This document shows, one piece after another, positions 5,030 to 40,099 of a stretch of DNA of 64,000 nucleotides. Each line of letters begins with the position of its first letter. Position 1 is the first letter of the stretch. The translations under genes and the position numbers were made by a program. The notes below the pieces were generated by a model. It worked only from the letters and a program-made list of their open reading frames with translations. It was not told where the DNA came from and made no database searches. The stretch is from Pseudomonas serboccidentalis (GTDB taxonomy: Bacteria; Pseudomonadota; Gammaproteobacteria; Pseudomonadales; Pseudomonadaceae). The stretch covers positions 2,114,880-2,178,879 of the forward strand of contig NZ_CP101655.1 in NCBI RefSeq assembly GCF_028830055.1, in the 5' to 3' direction.

Positions 5030-5072
5030 GGTGATGCCTCACTGTGGCTGGAGAGTGAGGCAAGTAAACAAT

Positions 5073-5890: not shown

Positions 5891-5922
5891 AAACAGAATG
5901 TTACAGCGCTTGCATTCAGATG

Positions 5923-5966
5923 ATAACAAACGTATTGTTTGGTCTTGCCGCTCAAATTGTTTGGTA
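5923..5966. promoter_or_regulatory. Right operator/promoter between repressor and cro-like gene
   Basis: Two direct copies of TTGTTTGGT (5935-5943 and 5957-5965), 22 bp apart. The first lies in a dyad, AACAA-ACGTA-TTGTT. The spacing equals two helical turns. This is the likely shared switch for the divergent repressor and cro transcripts. Confidence 0.55.
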
Positions 5967-5977
5967 TGGATAACGTC

Positions 5978-7070: not shown

Positions 7071-7287
7071 CATCGCCGATTTCGCCAACGATCTGGTGCA
7101 GGAACGCATCGATCAGGCCATGGCGGCGCGCAGCGCTGCCAAGGCCGAAAGCGCTGCTCATTCCTTGCTGTTCTGTGAAGCCTGTGACGACCCGATTCCG
7201 GAAGCACGCCGACTGGCCCAGCCGGGTTGCTCGCAGTGCATCAGCTGTCAGTCCCTCTCTGAGCGGGGGATTCAGCATGCTCGATGA
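7063..7287 (+). CDS. TraR/DksA-family zinc-finger protein
   Basis: 74 residues. The C-terminal half has a four-cysteine zinc finger (FCEACDDPIPEARR... GCSQCISCQ) after an acidic helix, as in TraR and short phage DksA-like proteins. Such proteins bind the secondary channel of RNA polymerase and mimic DksA with ppGpp. I choose GTG 7063 because GAGG at 7051-7054 gives good spacing. It overlaps both neighbours, so it is coupled to CII and the helicase. Confidence 0.85.
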   Translation: MADIADFANDLVQERIDQAMAARSAAKAESAAHSLLFCEACDDPIPEARRLAQPGCSQCISCQSLSERGIQHAR

Positions 7288-9496
7288 GGTATTGGGCCAA
7301 TTCGCCGATTACGGTCTGGAGCCAGCGCAACCGCTGGTGTTTGGCAAGCTGACCCGCTGCAAGACATCGCAGGACAAGGGCAAGGAAAAGAACGGCTGGT
7401 ACGTCGTCCACGAGCAGCGCACGGAGAAGGGCGACACCCTGATCTTCGGCGCCTTCGGTGACTGGCGTTCGGGCGAGACGCAGAAGATCAAGGTCAAGGC
7501 CGGCCGCATGTCCCCCGAGGAGCGCGAAGTGATGCGCGCTCGCCAGGAAGAAGCCAAGCGCCGCGCCGCCGAAATCGCGAATAACGCTGCGCGGCGGGCC
7601 GCGAAAAGAGCGCAAGGTTTGTTCGAGCGTATGCCGACCACCGGGCGCAGCGACTACCTGGATCGCAAACAAATCGTCGGCATCAACGTGCGTTACGCGC
7701 CACGCACCGGCGCCGTGTTGGTCCCAATGAAGAACGCCCGCGATCAGATCATGGGTCTGCAGGTGATCTTCCCGAACAAACAGGAAGACACCGGCCGCGA
7801 CAAATCCTACTGGCCTTACGGGATGGCGAAGGAGGGCACCTTCCACCTGCTCGGTCCGCACCCGGTACCGGGCGAACCGGTGCTGGTGTGTGAGGGTTAC
7901 GCCACCGGCGCCAGCCTGCACATGGCGACCTCGCTCGCGGTAGCCGTGGCCTTCGATGCGGGCAACCTGTTGGCCGTGTGCAAGGTCATGCGCGAACGCT
8001 TTGCCGGCTGCCCACTGATCATCTGTCGCGACGATGACTGGAAGACCACCAAGCCCAACGGCGATGCGTGGAACCCGGGTGAGGAGAAGGCCAGCAACGC
8101 CGCGTTGATCGTCGGTGCCCAAGTCGTCGCACCGATCTTCTCGATTGAGCGTCACGACAAGTGGACCGACTTCAACGATCTGCACGTCGCCGAAGGCCTC
8201 GACGCGGTTCGCCGACAAGTCCTCGCGGTGGTCCGCCCACCGGCAGCCGGTGGCTGGAAAGATCAGCTCGCTCGCAGTGAAAGTGGCGCACTGATCGCGC
8301 ACATGCAGAACGTCGAACTGATCCTGGCTCACGACGTGCGCTGGGCCGGGGTGATCAGCTACTGCGCTTTCAGCTCGAAGATCGTCAAGCTGCGTGCGGC
8401 GCCTTATGGCGGTGGCACCGGGGAGTGGGCCGACATCGATGATGTGCGCGTGATGAAGTGGCTCGCGCAGCAGTACAACCTGCGCGTGAAGTCTTCGCAG
8501 GTGATCGAGGCCGTCAGCGTCGTCGCTCACGACCACGCGTTTCACCCGGTGCGCGAGTACCTGAAAAAACTGGAATGGGATCGCGTGCCGCGCCTGGAGC
8601 GTTGGCTGACGGATGTCATGGGGGTGAAGGCAACCGACTACACCTCTAAGGTCGGCAAGCGCTGGATGATCTCGGCCGTGGCGCGGGTGATGAAGCCCGG
8701 CTGTAAAGCTGACTCGGTGATGATCCTCGAAGGCGTACAAGGCGCCGGTAAGTCGACCGCGATGAGCGTGCTCGGCGGTGAGTGGTTTATGGATACGCCG
8801 TTTGCCCTCGGTGACAAGGACGGCTTCCAGGCGATCCGCGGTAAGTGGATCGTCGAGCTGGGCGAACTGGACAGCTTCAACAAGGCCGAGAGCACCAAGG
8901 CCAAGCAGTTCTTCTCAGCGTCGACCGACACCTACCGCGAAAGCTATGGCCGCAGAACCCTGGACGTGCCACGCCAGTGTGTGTTCGTCGGTACCACCAA
9001 CCAGGACGAGTATCTCAAGGACGCCACCGGCAACCGCCGCTATTGGCCGGTGGCCTGTACCAAGGTCGACGTGGCGTTGCTGCGCGAGATCCGCGACCAA
9101 CTGTGGGCCGAAGCGATGTTCTGTTTTGAGGCCGGCGATCTCTGGTGGGTAACGCGAGAGGAAGCGCCGATGTTCAGCGAGGAACAGGACGAACGCTTTG
9201 TAGTGGACGAATGGGAAACGCCCATCCTGACCTGGCTCGAAGAGTCGCAAATCGGCGAGACCACCACCGGCAGTGAGGTAATGAGTCAGGCGCTCAAGCT
9301 CGATCCCGGTCATTGGGGCAAACCGGAGCAGATGCGCGTGGGTGCGATCCTACATCGACTGGGCTGGCGACGGTTCCGTTTGGGCGCCCTGAGCAAGAGC
9401 GGCCAGCGGCCTTGGGCGTACAAGAAACCGGAGGGTTGGGGCAGGGCGCCTGCGCTGGAACAACCTGAGTTCGAGGAGCCGTGCTTCGATGATTAA
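7277..9496 (+). CDS. Toprim primase / VapE-type superfamily 3-like helicase
   Basis: 739 residues from MLDEVLGQFADYGLEPAQPL. The first 290 residues carry a toprim domain (VCEGYATGASL near 200; acidic CRDDDW near 250) preceded by a basic region. The second half is the virulence-associated-E/phage helicase fold with Walker A EGVQGAGKST near residue 484, a Walker B-like WIVELGEL, and a TTNQDEYLKDATGNRRYWPV sensor/arginine-finger segment. Such proteins prime and unwind DNA for satellite or prophage replication. An upstream in-frame ATG lies inside the DksA-like gene and lacks a binding site, so it is rejected. Confidence 0.9.
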   Translation: MLDEVLGQFADYGLEPAQPLVFGKLTRCKTSQDKGKEKNGWYVVHEQRTEKGDTLIFGAFGDWRSGETQKIKVKAGRMSPEEREVMRARQEEAKRRAAEIANNAARRAAKRAQGLFERMPTTGRSDYLDRKQIVGINVRYAPRTGAVLVPMKNARDQIMGLQVIFPNKQEDTGRDKSYWPYGMAKEGTFHLLGPHPVPGEPVLVCEGYATGASLHMATSLAVAVAFDAGNLLAVCKVMRERFAGCPLIICRDDDWKTTKPNGDAWNPGEEKASNAALIVGAQVVAPIFSIERHDKWTDFNDLHVAEGLDAVRRQVLAVVRPPAAGGWKDQLARSESGALIAHMQNVELILAHDVRWAGVISYCAFSSKIVKLRAAPYGGGTGEWADIDDVRVMKWLAQQYNLRVKSSQVIEAVSVVAHDHAFHPVREYLKKLEWDRVPRLERWLTDVMGVKATDYTSKVGKRWMISAVARVMKPGCKADSVMILEGVQGAGKSTAMSVLGGEWFMDTPFALGDKDGFQAIRGKWIVELGELDSFNKAESTKAKQFFSASTDTYRESYGRRTLDVPRQCVFVGTTNQDEYLKDATGNRRYWPVACTKVDVALLREIRDQLWAEAMFCFEAGDLWWVTREEAPMFSEEQDERFVVDEWETPILTWLEESQIGETTTGSEVMSQALKLDPGHWGKPEQMRVGAILHRLGWRRFRLGALSKSGQRPWAYKKPEGWGRAPALEQPEFEEPCFDD

Positions 9497-13130: not shown

Positions 13131-13198
13131 GGCAAGTGGCCGCCTCTTAGGTGATTTCACCTATGACTCATCCACTGATCCAGCAAGGAGCACCTCCC

Positions 13199-13714
13199 AT
13201 GGCAACACCAGCGTACATGTCGGTTACCGGCGAAAAACAAGGCCTGATCACTGCAGGCGCATTCACCGCTGACTCCGTTGGCAACACCTACCAGGAAGGT
13301 CACGAAGACCAGGTCATGGTTCAGGCGTTCAGCCACGACGTGATCATCCCGCGTGACCCGCAATCCGGTCAGCCAACCGGTCAGCGCGTTCACAAGCCAG
13401 TTGTAATCACCAAGGTCTACGACAAGGCTTCGCCTCTGCTGCAAGCCGCTCTGACCTCCGGCGAGCGCATGAGCGAAATCGTTATCCAGTGGTTCCGTAC
13501 TTCGGCTCAAGGTACTCAAGAGCACTACTACACCACCAAACTGGAAGACGCGATCATCGTCGCCATCAACAACAAAATGCACAACTGCCAGGATCCAGGC
13601 AACTCGCACTTCACCCACCTGGAAGAAGTGCAGTTCACCTACCGCAAAATCACCTGGACCCACGAAGTCTCGGGTACTTCGGGTTCCGATGACTGGCGTG
13701 CTCCAGTCGTTTAA
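13199..13714 (+). CDS. hcp: Type VI secretion Hcp tube protein
   Basis: 171 residues from MATPAYMSVTGEKQGLITAG, preceded by AAGGAG; an upstream in-frame ATG has no binding site. The sequence carries Hcp landmarks: GEKQG, QVMVQAFSHDVIIPRDP, HKPVVITKVYDKASPLLQAA, IQWFR and a HLEEVQFTYRKITWTHE end. Hcp hexamers stack as the inner tube of the T6SS and carry small effectors. No TssA-M core genes are in the window, so this is an orphan cluster that must use a secretion machine encoded elsewhere. Confidence 0.95.
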   Translation: MATPAYMSVTGEKQGLITAGAFTADSVGNTYQEGHEDQVMVQAFSHDVIIPRDPQSGQPTGQRVHKPVVITKVYDKASPLLQAALTSGERMSEIVIQWFRTSAQGTQEHYYTTKLEDAIIVAINNKMHNCQDPGNSHFTHLEEVQFTYRKITWTHEVSGTSGSDDWRAPVV

Positions 13715-13841
13715 TCGCGGCTGATGGTTGTACCGTCTCGGCCAGCGCTGCTGGCCGAGATCATGAATTTCAAAAGATTTTTTTGCCGCCAGATCCTTAG
13801 CGATCTGGCGCGTATCGCAGCACTGCGTAAGGGACAAGGGA

Positions 13842-16748
13842 ATGTTCTCACCGGCCAACCAGCCTCATTTCAATCTGACCATCGATGGCGCGGACAGCGA
13901 CTTTCAGGTGCTGTCGTTCACCGGTCGGGAAGCCCTCAACACCCCCTTCCAATTCGAGCTGGAACTGGTCAGCGAAAAGGCCTCGATCAACCTCGAAAGC
14001 CTGCTGCACAAACTGGCGTTTCTTCAGCTGTCGCCGAGCGGCACCGGGATTCACGGGCTGATCTACAGCATCGCCCAGGGCGAGGCGGGCAAGCGCCTGA
14101 CCCGCTACAAGATTTCGCTGCGCCCGCAGCTTTCGTACCTCGCGCACCGTTTCAACCAGCGCATTTTCCAGCAGATGACCGTGCAGCAAATCATCAGCCA
14201 GGTGCTGGAAGAACACGGCATCCTCGCCAGCGACTACCACTTCCAGCTGAGCGCGATCTATCCCGAGCGCGTCTACTGCACGCAGTACGACGAAAGTGAC
14301 CTGCATTTCGTCCAGCGCCTGTGCGAAGAGGAGGGGATTCACTACCACTTCCAGCACACGTCCAGCGGCCACAAGCTGACCTTCGGCGATGACCAGACGG
14401 TGTTCCCGAAACTGGCGCCCGTGGCCTACCAACAGGACTCCGGGCTGGTCGCCGATCAACCGGTGGTCAAGCGTTTCGGCCTGCGTCTGGCGACCCGCAC
14501 CAGCCGCACCACGCGCCGCGATTACGACTTCGTCAAACCGAAGATCGAGCTGGAAAGCGACGCCAAGAGCAACGCCCAGCCGGATCTGGAAGATTACGAT
14601 TACCCGGGGCGTTTCGTTGATCGCGAGCGCGGCAAACACCTGGCCAACCGTGCACTGGAACGCCATCGCACGGACTATCGACTGGCCGAGGGCAACAGCG
14701 ATCAGCCGATTCTGGTCAGCGGGCATTTTCTCGCCCTGACCGAACACGCCAACCCGACGTGGAACGACCTGTGGCTGCTCACCGAGATCTTCCACGAAGG
14801 CAAACAGCCGCAAGTGCTCGAAGAGTCGGTGACCAGCGACACCACCGACAACAAGGACGATTTCCACCAGGGCTATCGCAACCGCTTCAATGCCATCCCG
14901 TGGGACGTGCCTTACCGTCCACCGCTGAATCACCCTAAACCGAAAGTCCTCGGTACTCAAAGTGCGGTGGTTTGTGGCCCTGAAGGCGAAGAGATTTACT
15001 GCGACCAGTACGGCCGGGTGAAGGTGCAGTTTTTCTGGGATCGCGAAGGCCAGCACGACGACAAGACCACCTGCTGGATGCGCGTGGCCTCCAGTTGGGC
15101 CGCCGAAACCTTTGGTTCGATCAACATTCCTCGGGTCGGCATGGAAGTGCTGATCACCTTCCTCGAAGGCGACCCCGACCAGCCGCTGATCACTGGTTGC
15201 CTGTACCACGGCGCCAACCTGCCGCCGTACAAACTGCCGGACTTCAAGACCCTGGCCACGGTTAAGAGCAAGGAATACAAGGGCAGCCGCGCCAACGAAC
15301 TGCGCATCGACGACACCACCAGCGAAATCAGCATTGCGCTGCGCAGTGACCACGGCGCCAGTGCGATCAACCTTGGTTACCTGACCCATCCACGTCCTTC
15401 AGGTGGGCAGCCGCGCGGTGAAGGTTTTGAGTTAAGAACCGACCGTCACGGCGCCGTGCGTGCCGGTGCCGGCCTGCTGATCACCACCGAACCGCGTCCG
15501 AACGAATCCAAGCACCACAAGGATCTGCCGGAAACCGCTGAACGCCTCGCCACGGCCAGCGATCAGCAGGACGGTTTTGCCGTTCAGGCCAAAGAGCTTC
15601 AGGCCCAAGAGGCCGGCGATCAGGACGACGTCGCCAAAGCGTTGCACGCGCAGCATCAAGGCGTGCTCGGCTCGGGACCGGCGAACCTCACCGCCAACGA
15701 ATTCCCCGAATTCACCGAGCCGCACCTGGTGCTCGCCAGTCCGGCCGGCATCGCCCTGACCACACCGCGCTCCAGCCACATCGCCACCGGCGAACACCTG
15801 GCGCTGAGCAGCACCGGGCACACCAGTTTCTCCATTGGCAAACGCCTGTTGGCCAGTGCCAGCCGTGGCATGCGCCTGTTCGTGCAGAGCATGGGCTGGC
15901 GTCTGGTGGCGGCCTCCGGCGACATCGACGTCAAGGCGCTCAAGGACAGCATCAACCTGCTGGCCAAACTCAACATCACCGCCAATGCCGACCGCATCAC
16001 CATCACCGCCAAGACCGAACTGGTGATCCAGGGCGGCGGCAGCGCCACGACCTACAACGCCGGCGGCATCACCCACGCCACCAGCGGCCCGTACACCGCG
16101 CACGCGGCGAACTTCGCCTACACCGGCGCGAAAAGTCTGGCCGGCGTGTTCCCGGAACCGCCGAAACCGGGCAAGGGCAACCTGGAGTTGTTCAACCAAT
16201 ACGCCGGGCGTCAGGGCATCAAGGAAGGCGATTACGAAGTGATCGACGCCTTGGGCAAAAGCATCAAGGGCAAACTCGACGCCAAGGGTTTTGCCAGCGT
16301 CGCCGGCGCCGCCCCGGGCCCGGCGCGCGTGCTGTTCGGCAAGGATCCGGCGGACACCTGGAGCGACGGCAGCTACATCGGCAAACCGGAATGGCCGTTG
16401 AATTCGCCGGGGGCTGATGACGTACCGAGTCAGGTGCAGGCGATGGTGGCGCAGGCGCTGCCGAGCAAGAACTGGGACATGTTGGAGAAGGGCAAGGAAT
16501 TGGCACAGACAGGTATGGGTGCAATGCAGACCGCGCAAGGTGCGATGCAAACGGCGCAGCAGGTGAAAGGCGCCGTGCAGGGCGGGGTGGCCGGGCTGCC
16601 GAAACTGGCGAATGCGGCAATGCCGAGTGCGTCGGGGATCCTCGGAGCGGCGAGCAAGGCGGGCAAGTTGCCGAGTCTGCCGGCGCCGACGCTTCCTAAA
16701 ACTTCCTTGAAAACCCCGGGCCTGCTGGCGGGTGAGATGCTGTCATGA
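13842..16748 (+). CDS. vgrG: Type VI secretion spike protein VgrG (TssI)
   Basis: 968 residues from MFSPANQPHFNLTIDGADSD. Residues 1-420 are the gp27-like base, followed by the gp5-like OB domain (QYGRVKVQFFWDREG; VASSWAAETFG; PRVGMEVLITFLEGDPDQP near 400-450). A DUF2345-type beta-helix region with T/S-rich repeats spans about 590-780. The last 100 residues are Ala/Gln/Met-rich helical (MGAMQTAQGAMQTAQQ), probably an adaptor segment for the Rhs effector next door. It lies 127 bp after hcp, and its stop overlaps the rhs start (ATGA). Confidence 0.95.
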   Translation: MFSPANQPHFNLTIDGADSDFQVLSFTGREALNTPFQFELELVSEKASINLESLLHKLAFLQLSPSGTGIHGLIYSIAQGEAGKRLTRYKISLRPQLSYLAHRFNQRIFQQMTVQQIISQVLEEHGILASDYHFQLSAIYPERVYCTQYDESDLHFVQRLCEEEGIHYHFQHTSSGHKLTFGDDQTVFPKLAPVAYQQDSGLVADQPVVKRFGLRLATRTSRTTRRDYDFVKPKIELESDAKSNAQPDLEDYDYPGRFVDRERGKHLANRALERHRTDYRLAEGNSDQPILVSGHFLALTEHANPTWNDLWLLTEIFHEGKQPQVLEESVTSDTTDNKDDFHQGYRNRFNAIPWDVPYRPPLNHPKPKVLGTQSAVVCGPEGEEIYCDQYGRVKVQFFWDREGQHDDKTTCWMRVASSWAAETFGSINIPRVGMEVLITFLEGDPDQPLITGCLYHGANLPPYKLPDFKTLATVKSKEYKGSRANELRIDDTTSEISIALRSDHGASAINLGYLTHPRPSGGQPRGEGFELRTDRHGAVRAGAGLLITTEPRPNESKHHKDLPETAERLATASDQQDGFAVQAKELQAQEAGDQDDVAKALHAQHQGVLGSGPANLTANEFPEFTEPHLVLASPAGIALTTPRSSHIATGEHLALSSTGHTSFSIGKRLLASASRGMRLFVQSMGWRLVAASGDIDVKALKDSINLLAKLNITANADRITITAKTELVIQGGGSATTYNAGGITHATSGPYTAHAANFAYTGAKSLAGVFPEPPKPGKGNLELFNQYAGRQGIKEGDYEVIDALGKSIKGKLDAKGFASVAGAAPGPARVLFGKDPADTWSDGSYIGKPEWPLNSPGADDVPSQVQAMVAQALPSKNWDMLEKGKELAQTGMGAMQTAQGAMQTAQQVKGAVQGGVAGLPKLANAAMPSASGILGAASKAGKLPSLPAPTLPKTSLKTPGLLAGEMLS

Positions 16749-19700
16749 CCACTGAAACTGCTGTTGTAAAACGTGAACCTCAGGTTGCGATCGTTCCCCT
16801 GAATGCCATCGACATTCAGGACGTCGCCAGCGGTGCGGCGACCTTCGATGCCTGGCTGCAATCGGCCAGTGGCGGGGTGGTCACCCTCGACCGGATCAAG
16901 AACGTCGCCGGCGCATTACCCGTGGTGGGCAACATCATGGCGCTGGTCGATGCGCTGGGTGACATCGTCACGCTGTCGAACGCACAGAAGCGCGACCTGC
17001 TCGCGTGGGCCAGTCTGGGCATCAACCTGATCGGTGTTTTGCCGCTGCCACCGGCGATGGCGGCAGCCCGGATGACCCTGCGTCCGACGCTGTTTCTGGT
17101 GCGTCAGGAGATGAGGGCCAGCAGCAAGTTGTTGCTCAGCACCTCCGTGATCGAGGTGCTGGTAGGTCACCTGAACGCCTCGATTATCGGCACGCTGGAT
17201 GATTTTGTTGAACAGGCCAAAGGCAAGCTGCCGGGCATTCTGGCGGACGCCGGCAAGCTGGGTGAAGACGTTGTCAACGAGATTGCCAAAGGCCTCGAGA
17301 CGGTGGCCAATGGCAAGCTTGATGCCAAGGGCGACCTAAACGCGGCTGGCGCACAAGCGAGTGCGGCGGTCGATCAATTCAAGAATGATCCCCTTGCATC
17401 GTTCGGCAACATCTTCGGCGCCGCGTGCAGCGCTTATAAGGCTGCAGGCAAAGGCTTGGCCAACAGTGCGGCCGATCACCTGCTGCCCGATGAGGTGAAG
17501 AAGCGGGTTGCCACGGAAACCGCGAAACTGCGGGCGATGGGTCCGGAGCTGCGCACCCAGTTGAGCAAGCTGGACGATGAGTCCGTTCAGAACTCCATCG
17601 GTTGGTTGCTGCTGATTCTTTCCAGCGCCGTGACGTTGTGGCGCAAGCGCAATGCCCATGGCCAGAACGCCGCCGTCCATCCGGAGAAGACCGGACAGGC
17701 GAAGCGTACGGCATCTGAGGGGCAGTTGGCCGCCCACGGCCAACAGGCACCGGCGAAAGGCGCGCCCAATCCAAAGAAAGGCCCTTGTGAATGTGCCACG
17801 AACTTCAGCATCAATTTCGCCTTGGGTTCGGAAAGCTTCAGCCATACCGATTTCAGCCTGCCCGGCCCCTTCCCGATCGAGTGGACCCGAACTTACAACT
17901 CACGCCTCGACGCCTACGATCAGAGCGAACTCGGGGCCCGTTGGATCAGCGAGTTCACCACGCGTTTCGACTGCGTGGACGATGGCCTGACCTTCTACGG
18001 CGCCGACGGCCGTGACCACAGCTATTCGCTGCCCAAAGTCGGTCTGTTTCATTACGACGCCATCGAAAATATCACCCTCGTTCGTGCCAGCGAAGATCAG
18101 CTATTGCTGTGCCACGGTTTCGAACGCAAGGAAACCTACGTCCGCCGTGGCCAGCGCTATGTACTGACCAACATTTCGCTGCGCAACGGCGCCGGGATCA
18201 TGCTGCATTACGAGCATCGGCACGGCGAACAATCGGTGCTCTCGGATCTGATCACCTATCAGGAAAACGACACCAGCAAGGTGCACTTGCACCTCGGCAC
18301 AATGATCGACAATCACGGCCGGTTTATCGGTCTCTGGCAAATCGTTGACGGCGAACCGCAGCGACAGCTCTGCGCCTACCAATACGACGCCTATGGCGAT
18401 CTGACTCAGGCGCAGGACGAGAACGGCGCAGTCTGGTCGTATCAGTTCCAGCATCACCTGATCACCCGCTACACCGACCGCACCGGGCGCGGCATGAATC
18501 TGCAGTGGGACGGCCCTGGCGCCAAGGCCAGAGCCATCCGCGAATGGGCGGACGACGGCAGCTTCGACTCGCGCCTGGAGTGGGACGAAAACATCCGTTT
18601 GACCTACGTCACCGACGCCCTCGGCAACGAGACTTGGCACTACTACGACATCCTTGGCTACACCTACCGCATCCGTTACGCGGATGAGCGTTCGGAATGG
18701 TTCTTCCGCGACGAAGCCAAGAACATCGTTCGCCGCGTGAATGCCGATGGCAGCACCGATCGCTACAGCTACGATGAACGCAGCAACTTGCTCGAACACA
18801 TCCGCGCCGATCACACGGTGATACATTACGCCTACGATGATCAGGACATGCTGATCAAGATCAGCGACGCCGAGGGTGGTCAGTGGCAACGCGCCTATGA
18901 CGACCAAGGCAACCTGGTCGAAGCGCTCGATCCGCTGGGCAACAAAACCGAATACGCCTACAACAAATCCGGTCAGCCCACCGCGATCAAGGACGCCAAC
19001 GGCAACGAAAAGACGTTGGATTACAACGACGCCGGGCAACTGGTCGAGTACGTCGACTGCTCAGGCAAGACCAGCGCCTGGGAATACAACGAACTGGGGC
19101 AGATGATCTGCTTCACCGACGCTGCCGGGAACGCCACCGAATACGAATACAAGGCCGGCCAACTGGTGCTGGTCAAGCACCCGGACAAGACTGAAGAGCG
19201 CTTTGAACGCGACGCTGAAGGCCGGCTGCTGACGCATGTCGACGGTCTCGATCGCTGCACCACCTGGAGCTACAGCGCGGCCGGTTTGATCGCCGAACGT
19301 GTCGATGCCGCCGAGCAAACCCTGCGCTATCGCTGGGACCGCCTCGGACGGTTAACGGCCCTGGAAAACGAAAACGAACAACGCGCGCACTTCCACTACG
19401 ACCCGGTTGGTCGACTGCTGGAGGAGAGCGGATTTGACGGCCGTAGTACGCATTATCAGTACGACCCTCTCACCGGTCGCCTCGCCCAATCAGTCAATGG
19501 CAAACGCATCATCTCATTGAACTTCGACCCGATGGGCCGTTTGACCGAGCGTCGCGCCACCCTGGGCGACCAATCGCAAAGCGAAACCTTTGCCTACGAT
19601 GGCAACGGCAACATGGTGCTGGCCGACAACGCCGACAGCCGACTGCAATGGTTCCACGACCCAGCCGGCAATCTGCTGCGCGAACACCAACATTACCTCG

Positions 19701-21436
19701 GACTGGAAAAGCCCACCGTCGCGATCTGGCAGCACGAGTACGACGTGCTCAATCAACGTGTTGCCACCGTTCGCCCCGACGGCCACCGCGTCAGTTGGCT
19801 CACTTACGGCAGCGGCCACCTGCTGGGCATGCGCCTGGACGAGCATGAGCTGATCGGTTACGAACGCGACGACCTGCACCGCGAAATCGCCCGCCATCAA
19901 GGCAATCACCTGCTGCAAACTCAAAGCTGGGACCCGGCCGGACGCTTGCAGGAGCAACTGCTGGGGCGCAGCGATGACAAAAGCACTCTGCTCAAGCGCG
20001 AATACAAATACGACGCTGCCGGCCAACTGACTGACATCAACGACAGTCGTCGCGGCCCGCTCGCCTATCGTTACGATCCCGTCGGCCGACTGCTCAGCGC
20101 CGTGACGCGTCAAGGCGTTGAAACGTTCGCCTTCGACCCGGCCGGTAACCTGCTGGATGACAAGACTGCAGAAATCCGTCGCCCACTGGATCTGACGCCA
20201 CCGCGCAGCAAACTGGTCGACAACCTGCTGCGCGAATACGCCGGCACCCACTACGACTACGACGAACGCGGTAATCAGATCCAGCGCTGGCACAACGGTC
20301 AGCGTAGCGATATGCGTTGGGACCTGTTTGATCGACTGGTGCATTTCGAAGATCCGCGCCTGAGTGTGGATTTCGCTTACGACGCACTGGGACGCCGCCT
20401 GCACAAAAACTCCCGCGCGCACTACAAACAGCGGCCGGAAGCCGGTTCCCTCTGGAACAGAAACGAGCACGCCCGCAAACAGCGTGAACTTGGCTGCGGT
20501 TTTACGCTTTACGGATGGGACGGCGACAACCTCGCGTGGGAAAGCAGTCTGGCGCAGGGCGATGGCGAGCCGGGTCGCACGGTGCACTACGTCTTCGAAC
20601 CGGGGACTTTCATACCCGTCGCTCAAGCTGTGCGACACGCGCCGATCAACCTCATGGGCCAGCCGGATTACAGCGGTGAATACAGCTTTGATGAGGATCC
20701 ACTGTGGAATCACAAAGCCACGGCATTACCGTTTGATGCGTTGGCCTGGTACCAGTGCGATCACCTAGGAACACCGCAGGAACTGACGGACTCACAAGGC
20801 AATATGGCGTGGACCGCGCAGTACAAGGCCTGGGGGCAGGTGACGGAGCAGCGTTCAGAATGGGCGCGGCAGCATGGTGTGACGAACCCGATCAGGTTCC
20901 AGGGGCAGTATCACGATCATGAGACAGGGCTGCACTACAATCGGTATCGGTACTATGATCCGAAGATCGGTCGGTTTATTTCGCATGACCCGATCAGTTA
21001 TTTTGGAGGCATAAACCTTTATCAATATGCTTCTAACCCAGTGAGCTGGATTGACCCTCTGGGACTCAATCGCTTCAAACCTAAGACCTTGACGACGGGC
21101 AGTGTGTTTAGAGGTGGATCCGGTACGGCGAGCAGCATGACACCGCGTCCGAACAAAGATGATGTTCGTAAAGGAAGTAACGCTCCGGGTTTGTCAGCCG
21201 ATATGTCAGTGGACAACATGGGGCCTGGAAAATATGTTGAACTTGATGTTGAAGCGCTTTGCTCTTGTGGTTTTGATGTAATTAATGACAAAGAGAGCGG
21301 GCATGTGACTATTCGTCCATCTGACGATCCTGATGACTCAAAACTGAAAGCATGGGCAAATACCCGTGGAGCAGAATCCAATCACGCCCTGACTGACGGT
21401 GTGTTGAAATCAATAAGCCGCAAAGGGGTGAAGTAA
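16745..21436 (+). CDS. Rhs-repeat T6SS effector with C-terminal Tse2-like ADP-ribosyltransferase-type toxin
   Basis: 1563 residues. Residues 1-330 lack PAAR but have hydrophobic helices (about 50-110 and 288-302), as in effectors carrying a membrane-translocation segment. A PxxxGPCEC-type linker follows, then the Rhs shell (about 340-1441) with many YD repeats and the terminal PIRFQGQYHDHETGLHYNR core. The DPLGL cleavage motif ends at residue 1441 (nt 21067). The 122-residue tip that follows (SVFRGGSG, PRPN, APGLSAD, GKYVELDVEAL, GHVTIRPSDD, HALTDGVLKSI) resembles Tse2-type ADP-ribosyltransferase toxins. GC falls in the tip, as usual for exchanged toxin tips. The shell and cleavage site are certain; the toxin class is moderate. 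Confidence 0.85.
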   Translation: MTTETAVVKREPQVAIVPLNAIDIQDVASGAATFDAWLQSASGGVVTLDRIKNVAGALPVVGNIMALVDALGDIVTLSNAQKRDLLAWASLGINLIGVLPLPPAMAAARMTLRPTLFLVRQEMRASSKLLLSTSVIEVLVGHLNASIIGTLDDFVEQAKGKLPGILADAGKLGEDVVNEIAKGLETVANGKLDAKGDLNAAGAQASAAVDQFKNDPLASFGNIFGAACSAYKAAGKGLANSAADHLLPDEVKKRVATETAKLRAMGPELRTQLSKLDDESVQNSIGWLLLILSSAVTLWRKRNAHGQNAAVHPEKTGQAKRTASEGQLAAHGQQAPAKGAPNPKKGPCECATNFSINFALGSESFSHTDFSLPGPFPIEWTRTYNSRLDAYDQSELGARWISEFTTRFDCVDDGLTFYGADGRDHSYSLPKVGLFHYDAIENITLVRASEDQLLLCHGFERKETYVRRGQRYVLTNISLRNGAGIMLHYEHRHGEQSVLSDLITYQENDTSKVHLHLGTMIDNHGRFIGLWQIVDGEPQRQLCAYQYDAYGDLTQAQDENGAVWSYQFQHHLITRYTDRTGRGMNLQWDGPGAKARAIREWADDGSFDSRLEWDENIRLTYVTDALGNETWHYYDILGYTYRIRYADERSEWFFRDEAKNIVRRVNADGSTDRYSYDERSNLLEHIRADHTVIHYAYDDQDMLIKISDAEGGQWQRAYDDQGNLVEALDPLGNKTEYAYNKSGQPTAIKDANGNEKTLDYNDAGQLVEYVDCSGKTSAWEYNELGQMICFTDAAGNATEYEYKAGQLVLVKHPDKTEERFERDAEGRLLTHVDGLDRCTTWSYSAAGLIAERVDAAEQTLRYRWDRLGRLTALENENEQRAHFHYDPVGRLLEESGFDGRSTHYQYDPLTGRLAQSVNGKRIISLNFDPMGRLTERRATLGDQSQSETFAYDGNGNMVLADNADSRLQWFHDPAGNLLREHQHYLGLEKPTVAIWQHEYDVLNQRVATVRPDGHRVSWLTYGSGHLLGMRLDEHELIGYERDDLHREIARHQGNHLLQTQSWDPAGRLQEQLLGRSDDKSTLLKREYKYDAAGQLTDINDSRRGPLAYRYDPVGRLLSAVTRQGVETFAFDPAGNLLDDKTAEIRRPLDLTPPRSKLVDNLLREYAGTHYDYDERGNQIQRWHNGQRSDMRWDLFDRLVHFEDPRLSVDFAYDALGRRLHKNSRAHYKQRPEAGSLWNRNEHARKQRELGCGFTLYGWDGDNLAWESSLAQGDGEPGRTVHYVFEPGTFIPVAQAVRHAPINLMGQPDYSGEYSFDEDPLWNHKATALPFDALAWYQCDHLGTPQELTDSQGNMAWTAQYKAWGQVTEQRSEWARQHGVTNPIRFQGQYHDHETGLHYNRYRYYDPKIGRFISHDPISYFGGINLYQYASNPVSWIDPLGLNRFKPKTLTTGSVFRGGSGTASSMTPRPNKDDVRKGSNAPGLSADMSVDNMGPGKYVELDVEALCSCGFDVINDKESGHVTIRPSDDPDDSKLKAWANTRGAESNHALTDGVLKSISRKGVK

Positions 21437-34025: not shown

Positions 34026-34113
34026 TGCGCTTCTAGCCGAAACCTGCCGTACCAAGCTACCGTTTTCGGCCAGAAGCGGACATCCGGGAACGACTGCTTC
34101 CGGCCAAATGCAG
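34026..34113. repeat. Dispersed island repeat, copy 4 (both arms)
   Basis: Contains GCGCTTCTAGCCGAAACCTG, CGTTTTCGGCCAGAAGCGGA and CGACTGCTTCCGGCCAAATG: direct and inverted versions of the same core. It lies immediately upstream of the radical SAM unit. Confidence 0.6.
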
Positions 34114-34350
34114 CCACACAGCCTTAACGACGCAACGGTCGCGGCTATTGAGAAAGCGGAAGTAGCGATTTCGCACCGCCCCGGGTCCGAATCGGTCGCT
34201 GCATTCGATCGCGCGGTACAGGTCGTCTCGGACGAGTTCTTGGTGATCATGAGGGCTGCGTCCTCGATTGGCAGAACACGGGCCGTAGGCGCTGACTCAC
34301 TGGTAGGCTGTCTCGAGAAAATCGACGCGCTAGAATGTCATTTAACGTAG
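34108..34350 (+). CDS. Small hypothetical protein, possibly 5'-truncated
   Basis: 80 residues, MQPHSLNDATVAAIEKAEVA onward, predicted helical. The ATG lies in the dispersed repeat and has no binding site, so the original start may have been replaced when the repeat was inserted. The frame ends 24 bp before the radical SAM gene, with the same orientation. It could be a fourth, damaged member of that unit or a relic. Confidence 0.35.
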   Translation: MQPHSLNDATVAAIEKAEVAISHRPGSESVAAFDRAVQVVSDEFLVIMRAASSIGRTRAVGADSLVGCLEKIDALECHLT

Positions 34351-34374
34351 AACCGCTTACGGTGACAAAGTCTT

Positions 34375-35292
34375 ATGAAGTCAAGAATCGGCCCAAACGG
34401 GGTGCATCTTTTCGATCGCCTTTCAGGTCTGAATGTCCTGCTAGACGAGTTGCGCCCGAAAGAGGCGATTTGGTCAACGTCCCCCCGCCAGGTATCCATT
34501 GCTCTAACAAATGTTTGCGACCTTCACTGCGCGTACTGCTACGCGCCGAAGCACAAGGCGTCGCTGCATACTGACCAGGTGCTCAGCTGGTTGAAGGAAC
34601 TGGATACTGAGGGGTGCCTCGGCATCGGATTTGGCGGCGGCGAACCCACGCTGCATCCTGACTTCGTCGACATATGCAAACGGGTTGCGGGAGAAACTCA
34701 GCTCGCGGTCACATTCACGACTCATGGTCATCGCCTGACGCCACAGCTGGTCGAGCGCCTCAAGGGCTCGATCCACTTCGCACGCATTAGCGTTGACGGG
34801 GTAGGTCGCACCTATGAAGAACAGCGCGGGAAGCAGTTTGCCAGCCTGCTCCGAGGTATGGATTCGATTGCGACCTTGTCGCCCTTTGGGATCAACGTCG
34901 TGGTCAACGAGCGAACGGTTGCAGAACTTGACGCGATAAGCGAGCTCGCGCAAAAGGTTGGAGCTAGCGAATTGCTGTTGCTACCTCAGCAAGCAACCAC
35001 CGCAGTCGCAAGCATGGATGGGTTGGTCTGCCGAGCACTTCAGGACTGGGTTTCCAGCTACGGAGGCAGGGTTCGCCTTGCGGTCAGTGAGGCGGGTGCG
35101 TCAGGACTGCCTACGTGCGACCCTCTGCCCGATGAGCGTGGCCTTCAGGCCTATGCGCACATAGACGCGTCCGGCATGCTTCGCGCTAGTTCTTACTCAC
35201 CTGCCGGTGCGAAGATTGGAGACGCCGGCGTTCTGTCGGCGCTTCAGCGACTGAGAAATACCTTCGAGATTAAACGCGAGACGCAATCATGA
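34375..35292 (+). CDS. Radical SAM enzyme (MoaA/SPASM-like core) of an unrecognised three-gene unit
   Basis: 305 residues. The radical SAM cluster motif is C48-x3-C52-x2-C55 in LTNVCDLHCAYCYA, followed by GFGGGEPTLHPD (GGE motif, SAM binding) near 86-96 and a RISVDG strand near 140. There is no full SPASM cysteine set, though an isolated Cys occurs in GLPTCDPLPDERG. The enzyme should cleave SAM to a 5'-deoxyadenosyl radical and modify a peptide, protein or small molecule. Its stop overlaps the DUF6375 start (ATGA), so the two are translationally coupled. Binding site is weak. The viperin-type sequence pattern is not present. Confidence 0.8.
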   Translation: MKSRIGPNGVHLFDRLSGLNVLLDELRPKEAIWSTSPRQVSIALTNVCDLHCAYCYAPKHKASLHTDQVLSWLKELDTEGCLGIGFGGGEPTLHPDFVDICKRVAGETQLAVTFTTHGHRLTPQLVERLKGSIHFARISVDGVGRTYEEQRGKQFASLLRGMDSIATLSPFGINVVVNERTVAELDAISELAQKVGASELLLLPQQATTAVASMDGLVCRALQDWVSSYGGRVRLAVSEAGASGLPTCDPLPDERGLQAYAHIDASGMLRASSYSPAGAKIGDAGVLSALQRLRNTFEIKRETQS

Positions 35293-35696
35293 AGATTTGG
35301 AACGGATACGGGTCTGAGCATTCGATGAACTTGGTTCTCATTGGGAGGTTCAAGCGAGTGCAAGACGCAGAGAAGGTCGAGAAGGACATTGACAGTCTCA
35401 GCGCTCAGGCCTCGAAAGATGACAGCCACTCCATCACTTTTGGTGAGCCAGAGGATCAGAGATTTTCAGATGACATGCTCTCGTTGCTGCGCAGCCTGAA
35501 CCTCAACACCTTGGGGCCAACTGATCTCGGCCAGCTGGCATCTGAGCATTATCTCACGCGAGAGGGCGATCGAATCACTGTCACGACTGACGAGGCTGAG
35601 GTGTCCGCGTTCGTGAAGATCTTTATCGAGGCTGGGGCAAAGGTCGAAGTTTTCTCGGCTCACGACTACCCGTCCGATTCCGCCGACGTTAGCTGA
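35289..35696 (+). CDS. DUF6375-family protein
   Basis: 135 residues beginning MKIWNGYGSEHSMNLVLIGR, the start I associate with the DUF6375 family. A beta-alpha-beta pattern follows (FKRVQDAEKVEKDIDSLS; DRITVTTDEAEVSAFVKIF; AKVEVFSAHDYP), suggesting a compact ferredoxin-like fold. No catalytic motif is visible. It sits between the radical SAM and nuclease-STAND genes, with 4-bp overlap and a 14-bp gap. That suits a substrate, adaptor or sensor for either partner. Role unknown. Confidence 0.7.
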   Translation: MKIWNGYGSEHSMNLVLIGRFKRVQDAEKVEKDIDSLSAQASKDDSHSITFGEPEDQRFSDDMLSLLRSLNLNTLGPTDLGQLASEHYLTREGDRITVTTDEAEVSAFVKIFIEAGAKVEVFSAHDYPSDSADVS

Positions 35697-35710
35697 CAGG
35701 GAAAATACTG

Positions 35711-38700
35711 ATGCCTGAAGCAAATTGGGATGTATTCAGCGAGCTACCCGGAGCAGCGGATGAAAACTTCGAGAAGCTTTGCCGCTCTCTGGTGCGCCGA
35801 CACTACAGTCGCTTCGGTCGCTTCAAGCAACTCGCAAACCAGCCTGGCGTGGAGTTCCACCTCCAGCTGACGGAGTCTTGTGATCTCGGAGCGCCGCCAC
35901 GGTGGATTGGTTGGCAATGCAAATGGTATCAGCTGGCGAACGGACAAGACTTGGGAGCCACGCGCCGCAACAATATCATCGAGGGCATGGAGAAGACGCG
36001 AAAGCATGTCCAAGGCGTGACCGATTGGAAGCTTTGGACATACCACACCCTGACAAAGGGAGACCAAGAGTGGTTCTTCGCGCTTGAGAAAGACCGCTTC
36101 CCCGAGTTGAAGTTGGAGCTGTTGACGGCAACCGATATTGACGAGCTCTTGGTTGGGCCGGGAGCGCTACTTCGAGAAACCTACTTCGGCGAGCTCGTTC
36201 TGACGCCTGCGCTACTTGCTGAGCAGTACAGGCTCGCTGCGGCTCCGTTCAAGCGCCGATATCAGCCAGAAGTTCATGTTGTCGTTGGAGCAGAGGAGAA
36301 GGTACTCAGGCGTCTGGGCGGCCAGAGCGCGTGGGAATCACTGAAGAAGCTCTCAAGTGCTCTCAAGAGGAATTGTACGGACATTGCTTCGCTGACAGGG
36401 CAAGTCAAAGATGAAATAAAGGCTGAAGTCGAATCGCTCTTGGCTCGAGCCACTGGACTGGCTGACCTGCTTGATAGCCTGCACGAGGCGCTTGGCAAGG
36501 GCGACTTCGACGCTTTACAACAAATGCTGGCGTCGAATCCTTCGCAGCCGGTGCGCTATGACAGGCTGCTCTCGAAGCTGCGTGGGGCGCGTTCAGACGG
36601 AGCTCCTTTAGCCGCGAATCTGGTTGCGGACATCCACGCAGTTTCGTCGGCACTGCGCAGTCTGGATCGGTCGATCGGCGCTCGAGCCGTCGCCGTGCTT
36701 GCGGCTGCCGGCGAAGGAAAGTCCGAGCTTGCCGTCAAGGTGACGCAGGCGGACGGAGAATTCCCCGGTGGTGTTTTGCTGCTGGGCAAGAATCTCCATG
36801 CAGGCCAGGGACTTGACGATCTAGTGTCTGCCTTCAAGATTTCTGGAAGGCCGGCGGAGAGCTTCGACCGACTGGTTGAGGCAGTAGATGCGGCGGGTCA
36901 GCGCGCGGGCAAGCGTATCCCTATTGTCATTGACGGTCTAAATGAAGCGGAAGACCCGAGAAGTTGGAGGGATGAACTCTGCAGGGCGGATGAGCTTCTT
37001 AGGGACTTTCCCTACGTACTGCTGGTTGTCACTCTGCGCAATGAGTTCACGCAGATGTGTCTGCCAGAGGAGTTTCCTAAAGTTGAGCACAACGGGTTCC
37101 AGGAAGATCCGCAGACGGCTATCGATAAGTACTTTAAGTACTACAAGATCGACGCCACCGACGCGGATCTGCCAATTGAGTTCTTGCAGCATCCTTTGAC
37201 GCTGAGAATCTTCTGCGAGGTGGCAAACCCTCGACGCCAGCACATTGTCGGCGTGGAGGCTTTACCCAGTTCGCTTGCAAGCCTGTTTGAAGTGCACTTC
37301 AATAAGGTCGCCGAACGAGTTGCTGAGCTTTCACCGGCGGCGCATCGCATCTATCAGGAGGAAGTGCAAGATGCGCTGCTGACGATCGCGGGTCTCCTCT
37401 GGGGGGGTAACGCGAGAAGCGTGGAGTTCCAAGCTGCACGAACGGCTGTTCGAGACGTGGGCCGTTGGGACGCCAGCGTTATTCGCGCGCTGGAGTCCGA
37501 AGGCATCCTCGTTCGAACGACTTCTGAAGACGGTGGCCAAGGAATCGCGTTCTCATACGATCTGATGGCCGGGCATATGATGGCACGGTATCTCCTCGCC
37601 AGGCCGTCCTTGGTGCAGTGGCTGCAAAGCGATGAAGGACGCACTCAATTCCAATTCCGTGAGGCTGGATCGCATACCTTCGCCTATGACGTGTTCCAGG
37701 CTCTGGTTGGCCTGTATCCGCAACGCCTTGGCAGGCGCCAGCTTTGGCAAGAATTGTCGGACGAGAACCTTGTCATGAACGCTCTGTTGTTGACAGCGCA
37801 ATCAGACCCAAGGCAAATCGGGCGGGAAACGGTGGAACGGTTCGCGCGCGCAATGCAGGAGTCGAAGCAGTTCGCACGGATGGCCTTCAAAAGACTTTGG
37901 AGCACCAGGGCAGCGCGAGCGCATCCGTTTGACATGGACTTCTTGCACGGCGTGCTCTTGGCCATGCCCAATACGCAGCGCGATCTTTTCTGGTCGGAGT
38001 GGGTTCGCGAGCGGTCTAAAGATGTTGAAGACGATTTCAAATTCCTGTCGACTAAATGGAAGTCGGGTAGCCTAGACGAACGAGAGATTCGGCGGGCGCG
38101 CTGGGTGATGTGGACGCTAACGTCGACGTCCAGAAGCCTGAGAGACGTGGCCACCAAGACCCTGTACGAATTCGCCGCCAAGCGGCCCGGGGAGTTTTTC
38201 CGGCTGGCAGTGGAGGCAATCGCCATTTCAGATCCATACGTCCCCGAGCGGATGTTCGCCGCGGCCTACGGTACGGTGCTGACCAATTGGTGGGATACTA
38301 ATGCTGTGGAGATGCGTGAGGCACTGCCGAGAGTTGCTCGTGAGATCTATCAAGCGATGTTCGCGCCTGGCGCGACGCATCCCACCTGGCATGCTCTATA
38401 TCAGCAGTACTGCCTGGGAACCATTGCCATCGCGAGGACGGTTGATCCGGCTTGCTTGTCTGAGGACGAGGCAGCTCATCTCGTTCCACCGTTTGACCAT
38501 CTACCCAGTCCGTTCGAGAACATGCCACATTATGACCCGGCGGTGATCGAACGTGCGAAGCGCGCGGCGATTAGAATGGACTTTGGCAACTACACGATGG
38601 GGAGACTGATTCCAGGTCGGTCGAACTACGACGACCGCAATCCAGAGTACCAACGGGTACTACCGGCAATCGTTTCGCGAATGCTGGTGCTTGGCTATGA

Positions 38701-39745
38701 CCCCGAGAAATTCGAAGCTGTTGATCGGCAAATGGACTCCGGTCCTCGTATGGGAAATGACAAGAACAAGGTCGACAGATACGGGAAGAAGTACGGCTGG
38801 ATTGCTTACTTCGAGATGTGGGGGGTGCGGTACGCGCGGGGCCTCCTTGCCGAAGAACGCAGCGCTCGTCCCTCAGATGTGGACATCGACCCGACGTTCC
38901 CGCTTGAGGCCGCGAGCATTGACCTGCCGCTTCCAGACTTGTTCGGCAGTCAGCCTACGGATGCTGGCGACTGGATAGTGAGAGGTCCGCAACCAGACTA
39001 CCGTGGCATCCTCGAATTAGCGGAGATTGATGGCATGACGGGGCCATGGGTCGTACTTGACGGGTTCCTCGAACAGAACGCCCCCGCTGATGACAGACAG
39101 GTCTTCACCTTTCTCCGAGGTGTACTCGTGGACAGCGGAGAAGTCGACCGCCTGTGCACGTTGTTCACTGGCCTCGAGTACCCCGGCAATGACGCCATTC
39201 CGAGCGAGCCAAGCTACTACTACACCTATGCGGGTGAGATGCCTTTCTCTTCGATTCCGGGACTGCCTGTCACTGACGAGCAAGAGGGTGACCGCGTCGA
39301 ATACATGGTGTCCGCTGATAGGTGGTCAAACAATGGCATCGCGGTCGACATCCCAGTGCAGAAGTACAACTGGGAGAGCTACCACAGCGTGGTGAACCAG
39401 AACAGCGGTGCATGCCTGCCCGCTAAACAGCTCTGTCAGGCTTTGAGTCTCAGGTACTGCGCCAACAAATGGGACCTGCACGATGCTGCAGGCGTGGCGT
39501 CCCTGTACCGAGAAGTCGGTGAGTATGGCTCGCAGGCCAGTGGCTTTTTTAGCTATCTGCGTCGCGACCTTCTTGATAGCTACTTGACGCAGTCCGGCAA
39601 GGCGCTGGTATGGCTAATGTGGGGAGAGCGTGGCTTCCATCACCGGTCAGTAGAGGCGCACAACCTGCACGAGTACTACGCGAACCACCAGCATATTCAC
39701 AAGCTTACTCACATCTATCAGCCTGCTTCGAGCACTCAATCGTAG
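35711..39745 (+). CDS. PD-(D/E)XK nuclease fused to a STAND/NACHT-like ATPase with a large helical sensor
   Basis: 1344 residues. Residues 15-130 resemble a Cap4/Mrr-type endonuclease: E21 in NFEKLCRSL, E48 in PGVEFHL and Q69-C-K71 in WIGWQCKWYQ (the ExK-type core). An RYQPEVHVVV junction follows near 183-192. The P-loop ATPase has Walker A AAGEGKS (K337, S338) and a NACHT-like Walker B IPIVIDGLNE (D408). The C-terminal 850 residues are mostly helical and look like a ligand-recognising superhelix. This layout matches Avs-type antiphage STAND proteins, which oligomerise on a phage protein and cut DNA. I do not recognise the sensor part. Last gene of the unit. Confidence 0.82.
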   Translation: MPEANWDVFSELPGAADENFEKLCRSLVRRHYSRFGRFKQLANQPGVEFHLQLTESCDLGAPPRWIGWQCKWYQLANGQDLGATRRNNIIEGMEKTRKHVQGVTDWKLWTYHTLTKGDQEWFFALEKDRFPELKLELLTATDIDELLVGPGALLRETYFGELVLTPALLAEQYRLAAAPFKRRYQPEVHVVVGAEEKVLRRLGGQSAWESLKKLSSALKRNCTDIASLTGQVKDEIKAEVESLLARATGLADLLDSLHEALGKGDFDALQQMLASNPSQPVRYDRLLSKLRGARSDGAPLAANLVADIHAVSSALRSLDRSIGARAVAVLAAAGEGKSELAVKVTQADGEFPGGVLLLGKNLHAGQGLDDLVSAFKISGRPAESFDRLVEAVDAAGQRAGKRIPIVIDGLNEAEDPRSWRDELCRADELLRDFPYVLLVVTLRNEFTQMCLPEEFPKVEHNGFQEDPQTAIDKYFKYYKIDATDADLPIEFLQHPLTLRIFCEVANPRRQHIVGVEALPSSLASLFEVHFNKVAERVAELSPAAHRIYQEEVQDALLTIAGLLWGGNARSVEFQAARTAVRDVGRWDASVIRALESEGILVRTTSEDGGQGIAFSYDLMAGHMMARYLLARPSLVQWLQSDEGRTQFQFREAGSHTFAYDVFQALVGLYPQRLGRRQLWQELSDENLVMNALLLTAQSDPRQIGRETVERFARAMQESKQFARMAFKRLWSTRAARAHPFDMDFLHGVLLAMPNTQRDLFWSEWVRERSKDVEDDFKFLSTKWKSGSLDEREIRRARWVMWTLTSTSRSLRDVATKTLYEFAAKRPGEFFRLAVEAIAISDPYVPERMFAAAYGTVLTNWWDTNAVEMREALPRVAREIYQAMFAPGATHPTWHALYQQYCLGTIAIARTVDPACLSEDEAAHLVPPFDHLPSPFENMPHYDPAVIERAKRAAIRMDFGNYTMGRLIPGRSNYDDRNPEYQRVLPAIVSRMLVLGYDPEKFEAVDRQMDSGPRMGNDKNKVDRYGKKYGWIAYFEMWGVRYARGLLAEERSARPSDVDIDPTFPLEAASIDLPLPDLFGSQPTDAGDWIVRGPQPDYRGILELAEIDGMTGPWVVLDGFLEQNAPADDRQVFTFLRGVLVDSGEVDRLCTLFTGLEYPGNDAIPSEPSYYYTYAGEMPFSSIPGLPVTDEQEGDRVEYMVSADRWSNNGIAVDIPVQKYNWESYHSVVNQNSGACLPAKQLCQALSLRYCANKWDLHDAAGVASLYREVGEYGSQASGFFSYLRRDLLDSYLTQSGKALVWLMWGERGFHHRSVEAHNLHEYYANHQHIHKLTHIYQPASSTQS

Positions 39746-40099
39746 ATCGAATCAGGCGAGTTGGACGCCGCCTTTCTTGGGCGCAGTAGATGTTTTATGT
39801 AGGGCAGGGAGCCAGCAGCGTATTCATTACTCGGTGCTGGATGCACCGTTCGACATCCTGAGAAGGTCGCGGCACCTTCAAATCAGCGCCTCGAATGTCC
39901 GCTCTCCGGAGCACCATTGCAGGCACAACCGGAGAACGCAGCAAGTGGACTCGCAGGCATTAGCTTTCGAACCGCATCGGACTTCAGTGTCTTACAAGCG
40001 GTTAGTCAACCAATTACACGCCGATGACCGCTGGTGACAATCGCGGTCTGTAGGCACACAGACATCTATGGCCGGTTAAAACTAGGTATTGGCTACCTG
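39746..40099. other. Stretch without a supported gene
   Basis: After the STAND gene I see no coding frame with a ribosome binding site and no clear terminator. The sequence leads into repeat copy 5. Confidence 0.4.

Follow-up and report, generated by a model that had tools for sequence, protein, structure and literature searches.

Three adjacent genes of Pseudomonas serboccidentalis, encoding a radical SAM enzyme, a DUF6375 protein and a large STAND protein with a predicted nuclease domain, were analyzed in a 64,000-nucleotide stretch of DNA (assembly GCF_028830055.1, contig NZ_CP101655.1, positions 2,114,880 to 2,178,879 of the forward strand; hereafter, the window). The three genes almost certainly form a real unit, held together far beyond chance, and the cassette very probably acts in defence. 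The genes stand in the order radical SAM, DUF6375, STAND. The sequence-only reading of the window had described them as coupled, and open reading frame (ORF) calling agrees with its coordinates, with a 4-bp overlap between the first two genes and with a 14-bp gap before the third. Of the 78 loci where the enzyme gene is adjacent, 56 show this overlap of exactly 4 bp between the radical SAM stop and the DUF6375 start. The residues that this reading had singled out (C48, C52 and C55 of the enzyme; E48, Q69-K71 and K337 of the STAND protein) are all present in the window proteins and conserved in their relatives.

34375..35292, + strand: radical SAM enzyme, 305 amino acids (aa), with an N-terminal three-stranded sheet, a SAM core and a twitch-like C terminus
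34516..34539, + strand: CxxxCxxC (C48, C52, C55), the [4Fe-4S]-SAM cluster motif, from column conservation
35289..35696, + strand: DUF6375 protein, 135 aa, ferredoxin-like core
35289..35330, + strand: DUF6375 N-terminal tail, residues 1-14, the proposed substrate segment, from conservation and the model
35711..39745, + strand: putative STAND receptor-nuclease of an Avs2 sister clade, 1344 aa
35852..35923, + strand: predicted PD-(D/E)XK-type nuclease motif E48 ... Q69-x-K71, from pattern and alignment, without a Pfam match
36710..36724, + strand: Walker A of the STAND ATPase, G334-x-G-K-S338, from column conservation
36932..36946, + strand: Walker B region, D408-G-L-N-E412, from column conservation
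38777..38800, + strand: RYGKKYGW motif in the C-terminal region (STAND residues 1023-1030), from alignment to five Avs2-like proteins

Linkage of the Three Genes across Genomes

A scan with the DUF6375 alignment over one GTDB genome per species (84,980 genomes) gave 118 pattern matches, which were reduced to 92 relatives and 80 kept loci, including one near-duplicate pair from a single strain (L091 and L093). ORFs were called in the kept loci and searched with the three window proteins. All three genes were found in order in 77 of the 80 loci; the radical SAM gene is adjacent to DUF6375 in 78 loci, as is the STAND gene. In two of the exceptions the contig ends nearby: DUF6375 begins 151 bp from the contig end in L036, and the contig stops after DUF6375 in L043. 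The genuine exception is L098, where a truncated DUF6375 gene stands behind a PglZ gene without radical SAM or STAND. In this metagenome-assembled genome of Phycisphaerae (L098:8340-10561), the start of the C-terminally truncated DUF6375 gene overlaps the PglZ gene (PF08665) by 4 bp, and the arrangement may be a recombination remnant or a case of DUF6375 serving another defence system. Going by record titles, we take the loci to belong to Pseudomonadota, Cyanobacteriota, Actinomycetota, Bacillota, Bacteroidota, Planctomycetota, Verrucomicrobiota, Gemmatimonadota, Nitrospirota, Acidobacteriota, several ‘deltaproteobacterial’ and candidate phyla, and, on plasmids, Deinococcota.

Reverse searches seeded with the radical SAM and STAND proteins are independent of the DUF6375 seeding. 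In a set of 72,556 plasmids, searching with the radical SAM protein (E ≤ 1e-10) retrieved the same 16 records as the DUF6375 query (E ≤ 1e-5); these represent few lineages, namely 12 Vibrio plasmids with identical DUF6375 identity, two cyanobacterial plasmids and two from Deinococcus. The STAND query matched 62 plasmid records. Among the 60 listed, 15 show 30–37% identity, all of them on plasmids with DUF6375 and radical SAM; one (H58/L100) is a C-terminal STAND remnant, split by IS66 and without the pair; and the others show less than 25% identity and comprise Avs2-like and other proteins. In the 16th plasmid with the pair, from D. peraridilitoris, an insertion sequence sits at the DUF6375 end, and the STAND query gave no match. 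The same division was obtained with a Bacillota STAND query (L054) among 20 of 62 records listed. In 5,426 complete Escherichia coli genomes, the radical SAM–DUF6375 pair was detected in 25 and the STAND gene in 25, with identical accessions.

In the host family (398 genomes, including that of the window), DUF6375 was found in four genomes and a high-scoring STAND protein in the same four. The next STAND match is a C-terminal remnant (L136, genome G256) in a 532-aa open frame between transposases and without the pair. The same-genus genomes G226 and G318 carry copies whose alignment statistics to the window are the same as those of the Pseudomonas records L027 and L033. A sample of the phylum likewise contains DUF6375 in 4 of 398 genomes, the window’s included. 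No relative was present among 64 pattern matches in viral contigs, DUF6375 was found in none of 50,697 phage records, and the STAND query had one match in the phage records, at 21.9% identity; in the viral contigs and phage records searched, the cassette is not phage-borne.

According to the sequence-only reading, the unit would be accidental if STAND homologues mostly occurred without the other two genes or if the pair were widespread beside unrelated neighbours. By the co-occurrence counts on plasmids, in E. coli, in the host family and in the 80 loci, neither is the case.

Transfer, Selection and Decay of the Cassette

When positions 31–43 kb of the window were compared with all loci by BLASTN (matches longer than 800 bp), long DNA similarity between genera was restricted to the cassette and ended at its edges. 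The level of identity is 89.6% for Thiocapsa L020 and 88.5% for Sulfuricella L021 (both over 34152-39886), 89.1% for Burkholderia L031 (34306-39826), 89.0% for Xanthomonas L032 (34193-39779) and 85.9% for Halomonas L023 (34308-39918). Distance matrices of the three genes from 70 loci are correlated (enzyme–DUF6375, 0.860; enzyme–STAND, 0.923; DUF6375–STAND, 0.925); these correlations are identity-based and ignore kinship, and none of 999 permutations reached any of the values. The dN/dS ratios against eight chosen relatives are 0.13–0.18 for the enzyme, 0.10–0.23 for DUF6375 and 0.10–0.20 for STAND. The cassette is a mobile, co-transferred unit of shared ancestry, with purifying selection on all three genes.

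Broken copies were also found. The STAND gene is broken and the pair apparently intact in L015 and L046 and, by annotation and coverage only, in E. coli CP024826, CP195049 and CP127297. In L015, a Vibrio parahaemolyticus plasmid, an IS3 element lies within the STAND gene, and BREX genes (brxL, pglZ) are located a few hundred bp away. In the Halomonas chromosome L023, an in-frame stop divides the radical SAM gene into two in-frame pieces, and DUF6375 and STAND are intact. Both radical SAM and STAND are broken in L024 and L034; other short ORFs, several in number, are cut by the proximity of a contig end. A polarity of decay, with STAND breaking first, was considered and set aside; both directions are seen, and the cases are too few to decide.

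STAND Protein as a Distant Relative of Avs2

The 1344-aa protein matches no Pfam family at E ≤ 1. It matches the PADLOC Avs2 model PDLC02164 over residues 2-965 (9.6e-116), and the solved Avs2 chain 9o4e aligns to its residues 332-964 (5.2e-35). The NCBIfam Avs2 model NF041813 gives 264.6 bits, below its cut-off of 1000, and the best PADLOC model scores are 316.7–396.2 bits for three cassette proteins versus 1411.6–1875.8 bits for three Avs2-like proteins. On a phylogenetic tree of 74 cassette STAND proteins and five plasmid Avs2-like proteins, the 74 are monophyletic with a support of 0.992 and a branch of 1.48; their identity to the five is 18–20%. By these comparisons, the STAND protein is a deep, distant sister of Avs2.

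The motifs are well kept among the 74 proteins. In the nuclease columns, E48 is found in 74, Q69 in 70, and position 71 is K in 61 and R in 13; the motif and the Avs2 alignment together predict an N-terminal PD-(D/E)XK nuclease. G334, G336 and K337 of Walker A and D408 and E412 of Walker B are each present in all 74. The C-terminal RYGKKYxW is also kept and corresponds to R-[IF]-[GS]-KKYQW in the five Avs2-like proteins. The earlier assignment to Avs-type nuclease-STAND proteins is borne out and can be narrowed to a distant sister of Avs2.

The cassette protein and Avs2 have in common the N-terminal PD-(D/E)XK-type motif, the STAND ATPase, a related C-terminal region and KKYxW. However, Avs2 is a stand-alone single gene, whereas the cassette STAND gene accompanies radical SAM and DUF6375 in the loci described above; the annotation of the five Avs2-like plasmid loci inspected shows neither a radical SAM nor a DUF6375 neighbour. 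The idea that DUF6375 fills a missing Avs2 sensor stretch was rejected, since the stretch is just as short in two of the five Avs2-like proteins. The Avs1-4 nucleases are reported to cut phage and host DNA upon sensing terminase, portal or Ksap1, and Avs1-3 to be activated by the phage large terminase or another phage protein (PMC12931631, PMC12724215). By analogy, the cassette receptor would be expected to act as a nuclease once an invader protein triggers it.

Radical SAM Enzyme and Its DUF6375 Partner

The enzyme matches PF04055 with 62.1 bits (cut-off 29.5). Among its relatives, CxxxCxxC and GGGEP are essentially invariant, with C48 and C52 in 82 of 83 sequences and C55 in 83. The SPASM/twitch auxiliary-cluster cysteines are not conserved at their canonical positions; C101 (81/83) and C248 (64/83) are the only cysteines that recur outside the SAM motif, and the C-terminal hairpin is mostly SSY/SSF. 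No NCBIfam cut-off was reached among the models listed, the best being mycofactocin maturase (65 bits), viperin (57) and MoaA (56), and the top model varies over four relatives (viperin, NirJ1, PqqE, mycofactocin). A profile search of solved structures ranked SkfB first (2.5e-17), followed by a viperin-like enzyme (3.4e-12) and PqqE (9.9e-10).

The AlphaFold2 model of the enzyme has a predicted local distance difference test score (pLDDT) of 93.9 and a predicted template modelling score (pTM) of 0.90. Its structural ranking is headed by SkfB (26.5; 3.2 Å over 282 residues, model residues 1-300) and SuiB (24.6; 298 residues, 1-305), followed by viperin-like (22.8; 2.2 Å over 239 residues, 34-294), BlsE (21.6), PqqE (21.2) and DesII (20.0, from residue 4). 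The viperin rows listed start at enzyme residues 32-38. Residues 2-23 form three strands in the model and lie inside the ranges aligned to SkfB and SuiB; no helices of a precursor recognition element (RRE) follow them. In maturases of ribosomally synthesized and post-translationally modified peptides (RiPPs), the corresponding N-terminal region holds the substrate leader. The enzyme resembles the peptide maturases SkfB and SuiB more than viperin. These RRE-bearing maturases are the closest solved structures and share the CxxxCxxC motif, and their aligned ranges include the N-terminal sheet. Unlike them, the cassette enzyme has an N-terminal part of only about 25 residues of strands and lacks the auxiliary-cluster cysteines; its partner is a folded 135-aa protein, not a short leader-core precursor, and the third gene encodes a putative immune receptor.

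Prokaryotic viperins (pVip) are likewise radical SAM enzymes of antiviral systems with a similar SAM core, but the cassette enzyme scores 56.9 bits with the viperin model NF038283 (44.1–61 bits in four relatives), below the cut-off of 180, and has DUF6375 and STAND partners. Membership in the viperins was ruled out on this score and on a likeness that covers the SAM core only; a viperin-like mechanism is kept among the alternatives below.

The DUF6375 protein matches PF19902 with 186.1 bits (gathering cut-off 27.5). No model of PADLOC 2.0.0 matches it at E ≤ 1, and single-sequence and profile searches of the Protein Data Bank gave no credible match. Its model (pLDDT 83.2, pTM 0.75) has a ferredoxin-like core with strands at 15-20, 88-92, 95-100 and 118-123. 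Regular structure is absent before residue 15; residues 1-9 have pLDDT below 50, and residues 10-14 are not of low confidence. In this tail, all 64 aligned rows carry W4, E10, H11 and S12, and positions 5 and 6 vary. Column entropy averages 0.58 over residues 1-14 versus 1.83 over residues 15-123, a contrast that is inflated because the seeding scan used words from the tail. Of the 122 possible 14-residue segments, seven, the tail included, are as conserved as the tail, and the lowest five begin at residues 3-9. In searches able to find tail-less proteins, all DUF6375 matches align from residue 1 (16 plasmids and 4+4 genomes of the two 398-genome samples, both of which contain the window). A conserved, unstructured tail encoded beside a maturase-like enzyme is what would be expected of a substrate segment; alternatively, the tail may insert as a peptide into the STAND protein.

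Proposed Mechanism and Alternatives

We propose a protein maturase role for the radical SAM enzyme, which would dock the folded core of DUF6375 and modify its conserved N-terminal tail. Modified DUF6375 would then be an obligatory receptor subunit, more likely licensing the STAND protein than restraining it. Licensing is preferred because the STAND gene of Halomonas L023 is intact beside a stop-bearing radical SAM gene, a single case in one assembly. By homology to Avs2, the C-terminal part of STAND would sense an invader protein, the ATPase would oligomerize upon sensing, and the N-terminal nuclease would cut DNA and thereby stop the infected cell. The sensed event could also be an invader disturbing the enzyme, SAM, iron–sulphur clusters or the modified tail. 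Modification of DUF6375 by the enzyme is slightly more likely than not. The whole chain, with tail modification, a required DUF6375 subunit and STAND oligomerization and nuclease firing, is tentative, and doubts slightly prevail. An NLR-like receptor (nucleotide-binding, leucine-rich repeat type) that depends on radical SAM modification of the DUF6375 tail, with the modified protein serving an Avs2-like nuclease as switch or co-receptor, is possible, if more doubtful than probable.

The enzyme might instead make a small molecule, such as a viperin-like nucleotide, with DUF6375 as a PII-like ligand sensor and the complex gating the STAND nuclease. This is unlikely, though worth serious attention; the closer likeness to SkfB and SuiB than to viperin favours modification of DUF6375. 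It is quite improbable that DUF6375 is a recognition adaptor and that the target of the enzyme is the STAND receptor, with the sensor region as one conceivable site: the linkage of all three genes is equally tight and the correlations (DUF6375–STAND 0.925, enzyme–STAND 0.923, enzyme–DUF6375 0.860) would suit such a role, but the DUF6375 tail, whose average conservation exceeds that of the remaining protein, would be left unexplained. Very little probability attaches to a scheme in which the enzyme and DUF6375 mark tRNA or DNA as self and loss or alteration of the mark sets off the STAND nuclease, as no known RNA-modifying radical SAM family is among the best-listed family and profile matches and RlmN ranks far under the maturases structurally.

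A selfish or stress module, for instance one serving plasmid or island maintenance with the pair restraining a toxic nuclease, would agree with the copies on plasmids and in an integrase-bearing island, and with the broken STAND genes beside an apparently intact pair in L015, L046 and the three E. coli genomes (the latter by annotation and coverage only). However, the receptor is a relative of Avs2, defence genes are among the neighbours, and a strict antitoxin role would not allow the intact STAND gene beside the broken radical SAM gene of L023; such a module is an improbable reading. That the genes are accidental neighbours without joint function is hardly credible: the PglZ-adjacent L098 is the one exception in its favour, and against it stand the counts in loci, plasmids, E. 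coli and the host family, the cassette-confined DNA similarity and the distance correlations.

Genomic Neighbourhood

A census of 117 flanking ORFs (one per side, 180–1300 aa) from 67 loci revealed no constant fourth gene among the first 25 families listed. The commonest of these are type I methyltransferases (4), specificity subunits (3), Mads (3), integrases (3) and transposases. A conserved downstream gene was rejected as well: a same-strand ORF of at least 150 aa within 300 bp occurs in 20 of 67 loci, and these ORFs are mostly mutually unrelated, the only related ones being the close pairs L035/L036 and L076/L077 and a weak similarity of L076/L077 to L094. Seven downstream genes, chosen by eye and thus a non-random draw, all have PADLOC matches at E ≤ 0.001: Dsr1 (L020), Upx (L018), type I subunits (L038, L076, L077), an Mrr-nSTAND3 protein (L013) and, weakly, a PtuA/Mads-type ATPase (L087). 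The L013 protein (17392-19680, 762 aa, PADLOC candidate PDC-S73) follows STAND with a 4-bp overlap in E. coli MLI107, whose cassette sits in an integrase-bearing island at tRNA-Thr.

In the window itself, an 80-aa ORF just 5′ of the operon (34108-34350) matches no family at its cut-off and was rejected as a fourth gene; its matches are weak, partial or split and confined to five other loci (L020, L021, L024, L028, L032). Promoter and terminator scans gave no more sites than shuffled sequence. Eight other window proteins were scanned, without a match to any PADLOC family at E ≤ 1e-8. At 13151-21436, consecutive genes encode Hcp, VgrG and a 1563-aa Rhs protein, which looks like a type VI secretion cluster. 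At 1547-9496, a phage-type integrase gene (1727-2758, − strand) adjoins a tRNA-Leu gene, and a VapE/Toprim protein is encoded at 7175-9496; this stretch may be one end of an integrative element.

Relation to Known Systems and Significance

The combination of the three genes had been thought undescribed. In the literature searched, with bioRxiv and most subscription journals outside its scope, no system that joins radical SAM, DUF6375 and an Avs-type STAND protein was found among the papers listed, and none of 5.39 million papers mentions DUF6375. The nearest published idea seen is the peptide-processing module of NTP-dependent vWA/MoxR/VMAP conflict systems, in which a radical SAM module is predicted to modify a peptide and AP-ATPase effectors are present (Kaur et al. 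2020, PMC7159879). The resemblance lies in these two features. Those systems, however, have vWA/MoxR/VMAP cores and a peptidase, whereas the cassette STAND protein is Avs2-like. No constant gene beyond the three was found in the 67 cassette loci, either among the listed flanking families or directly downstream, a result obtained without a search with VMAP models. The cassette is apparently an Avs-type STAND immunity system with a control module that was not found described for Avs-type systems.

With the cassette, one can ask by genetics whether a receptor of Avs type requires a subunit that licenses or restrains it, and its presence in 25 of 5,426 complete E. coli genomes makes it testable in laboratory strains. 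If the proposal is true, DUF6375 would be given a role, and a subfamily of radical SAM enzymes predicted to act on a protein would be defined. The control of NLR-like receptors would then extend to post-translational radical chemistry, across more than 12 phyla by record titles.

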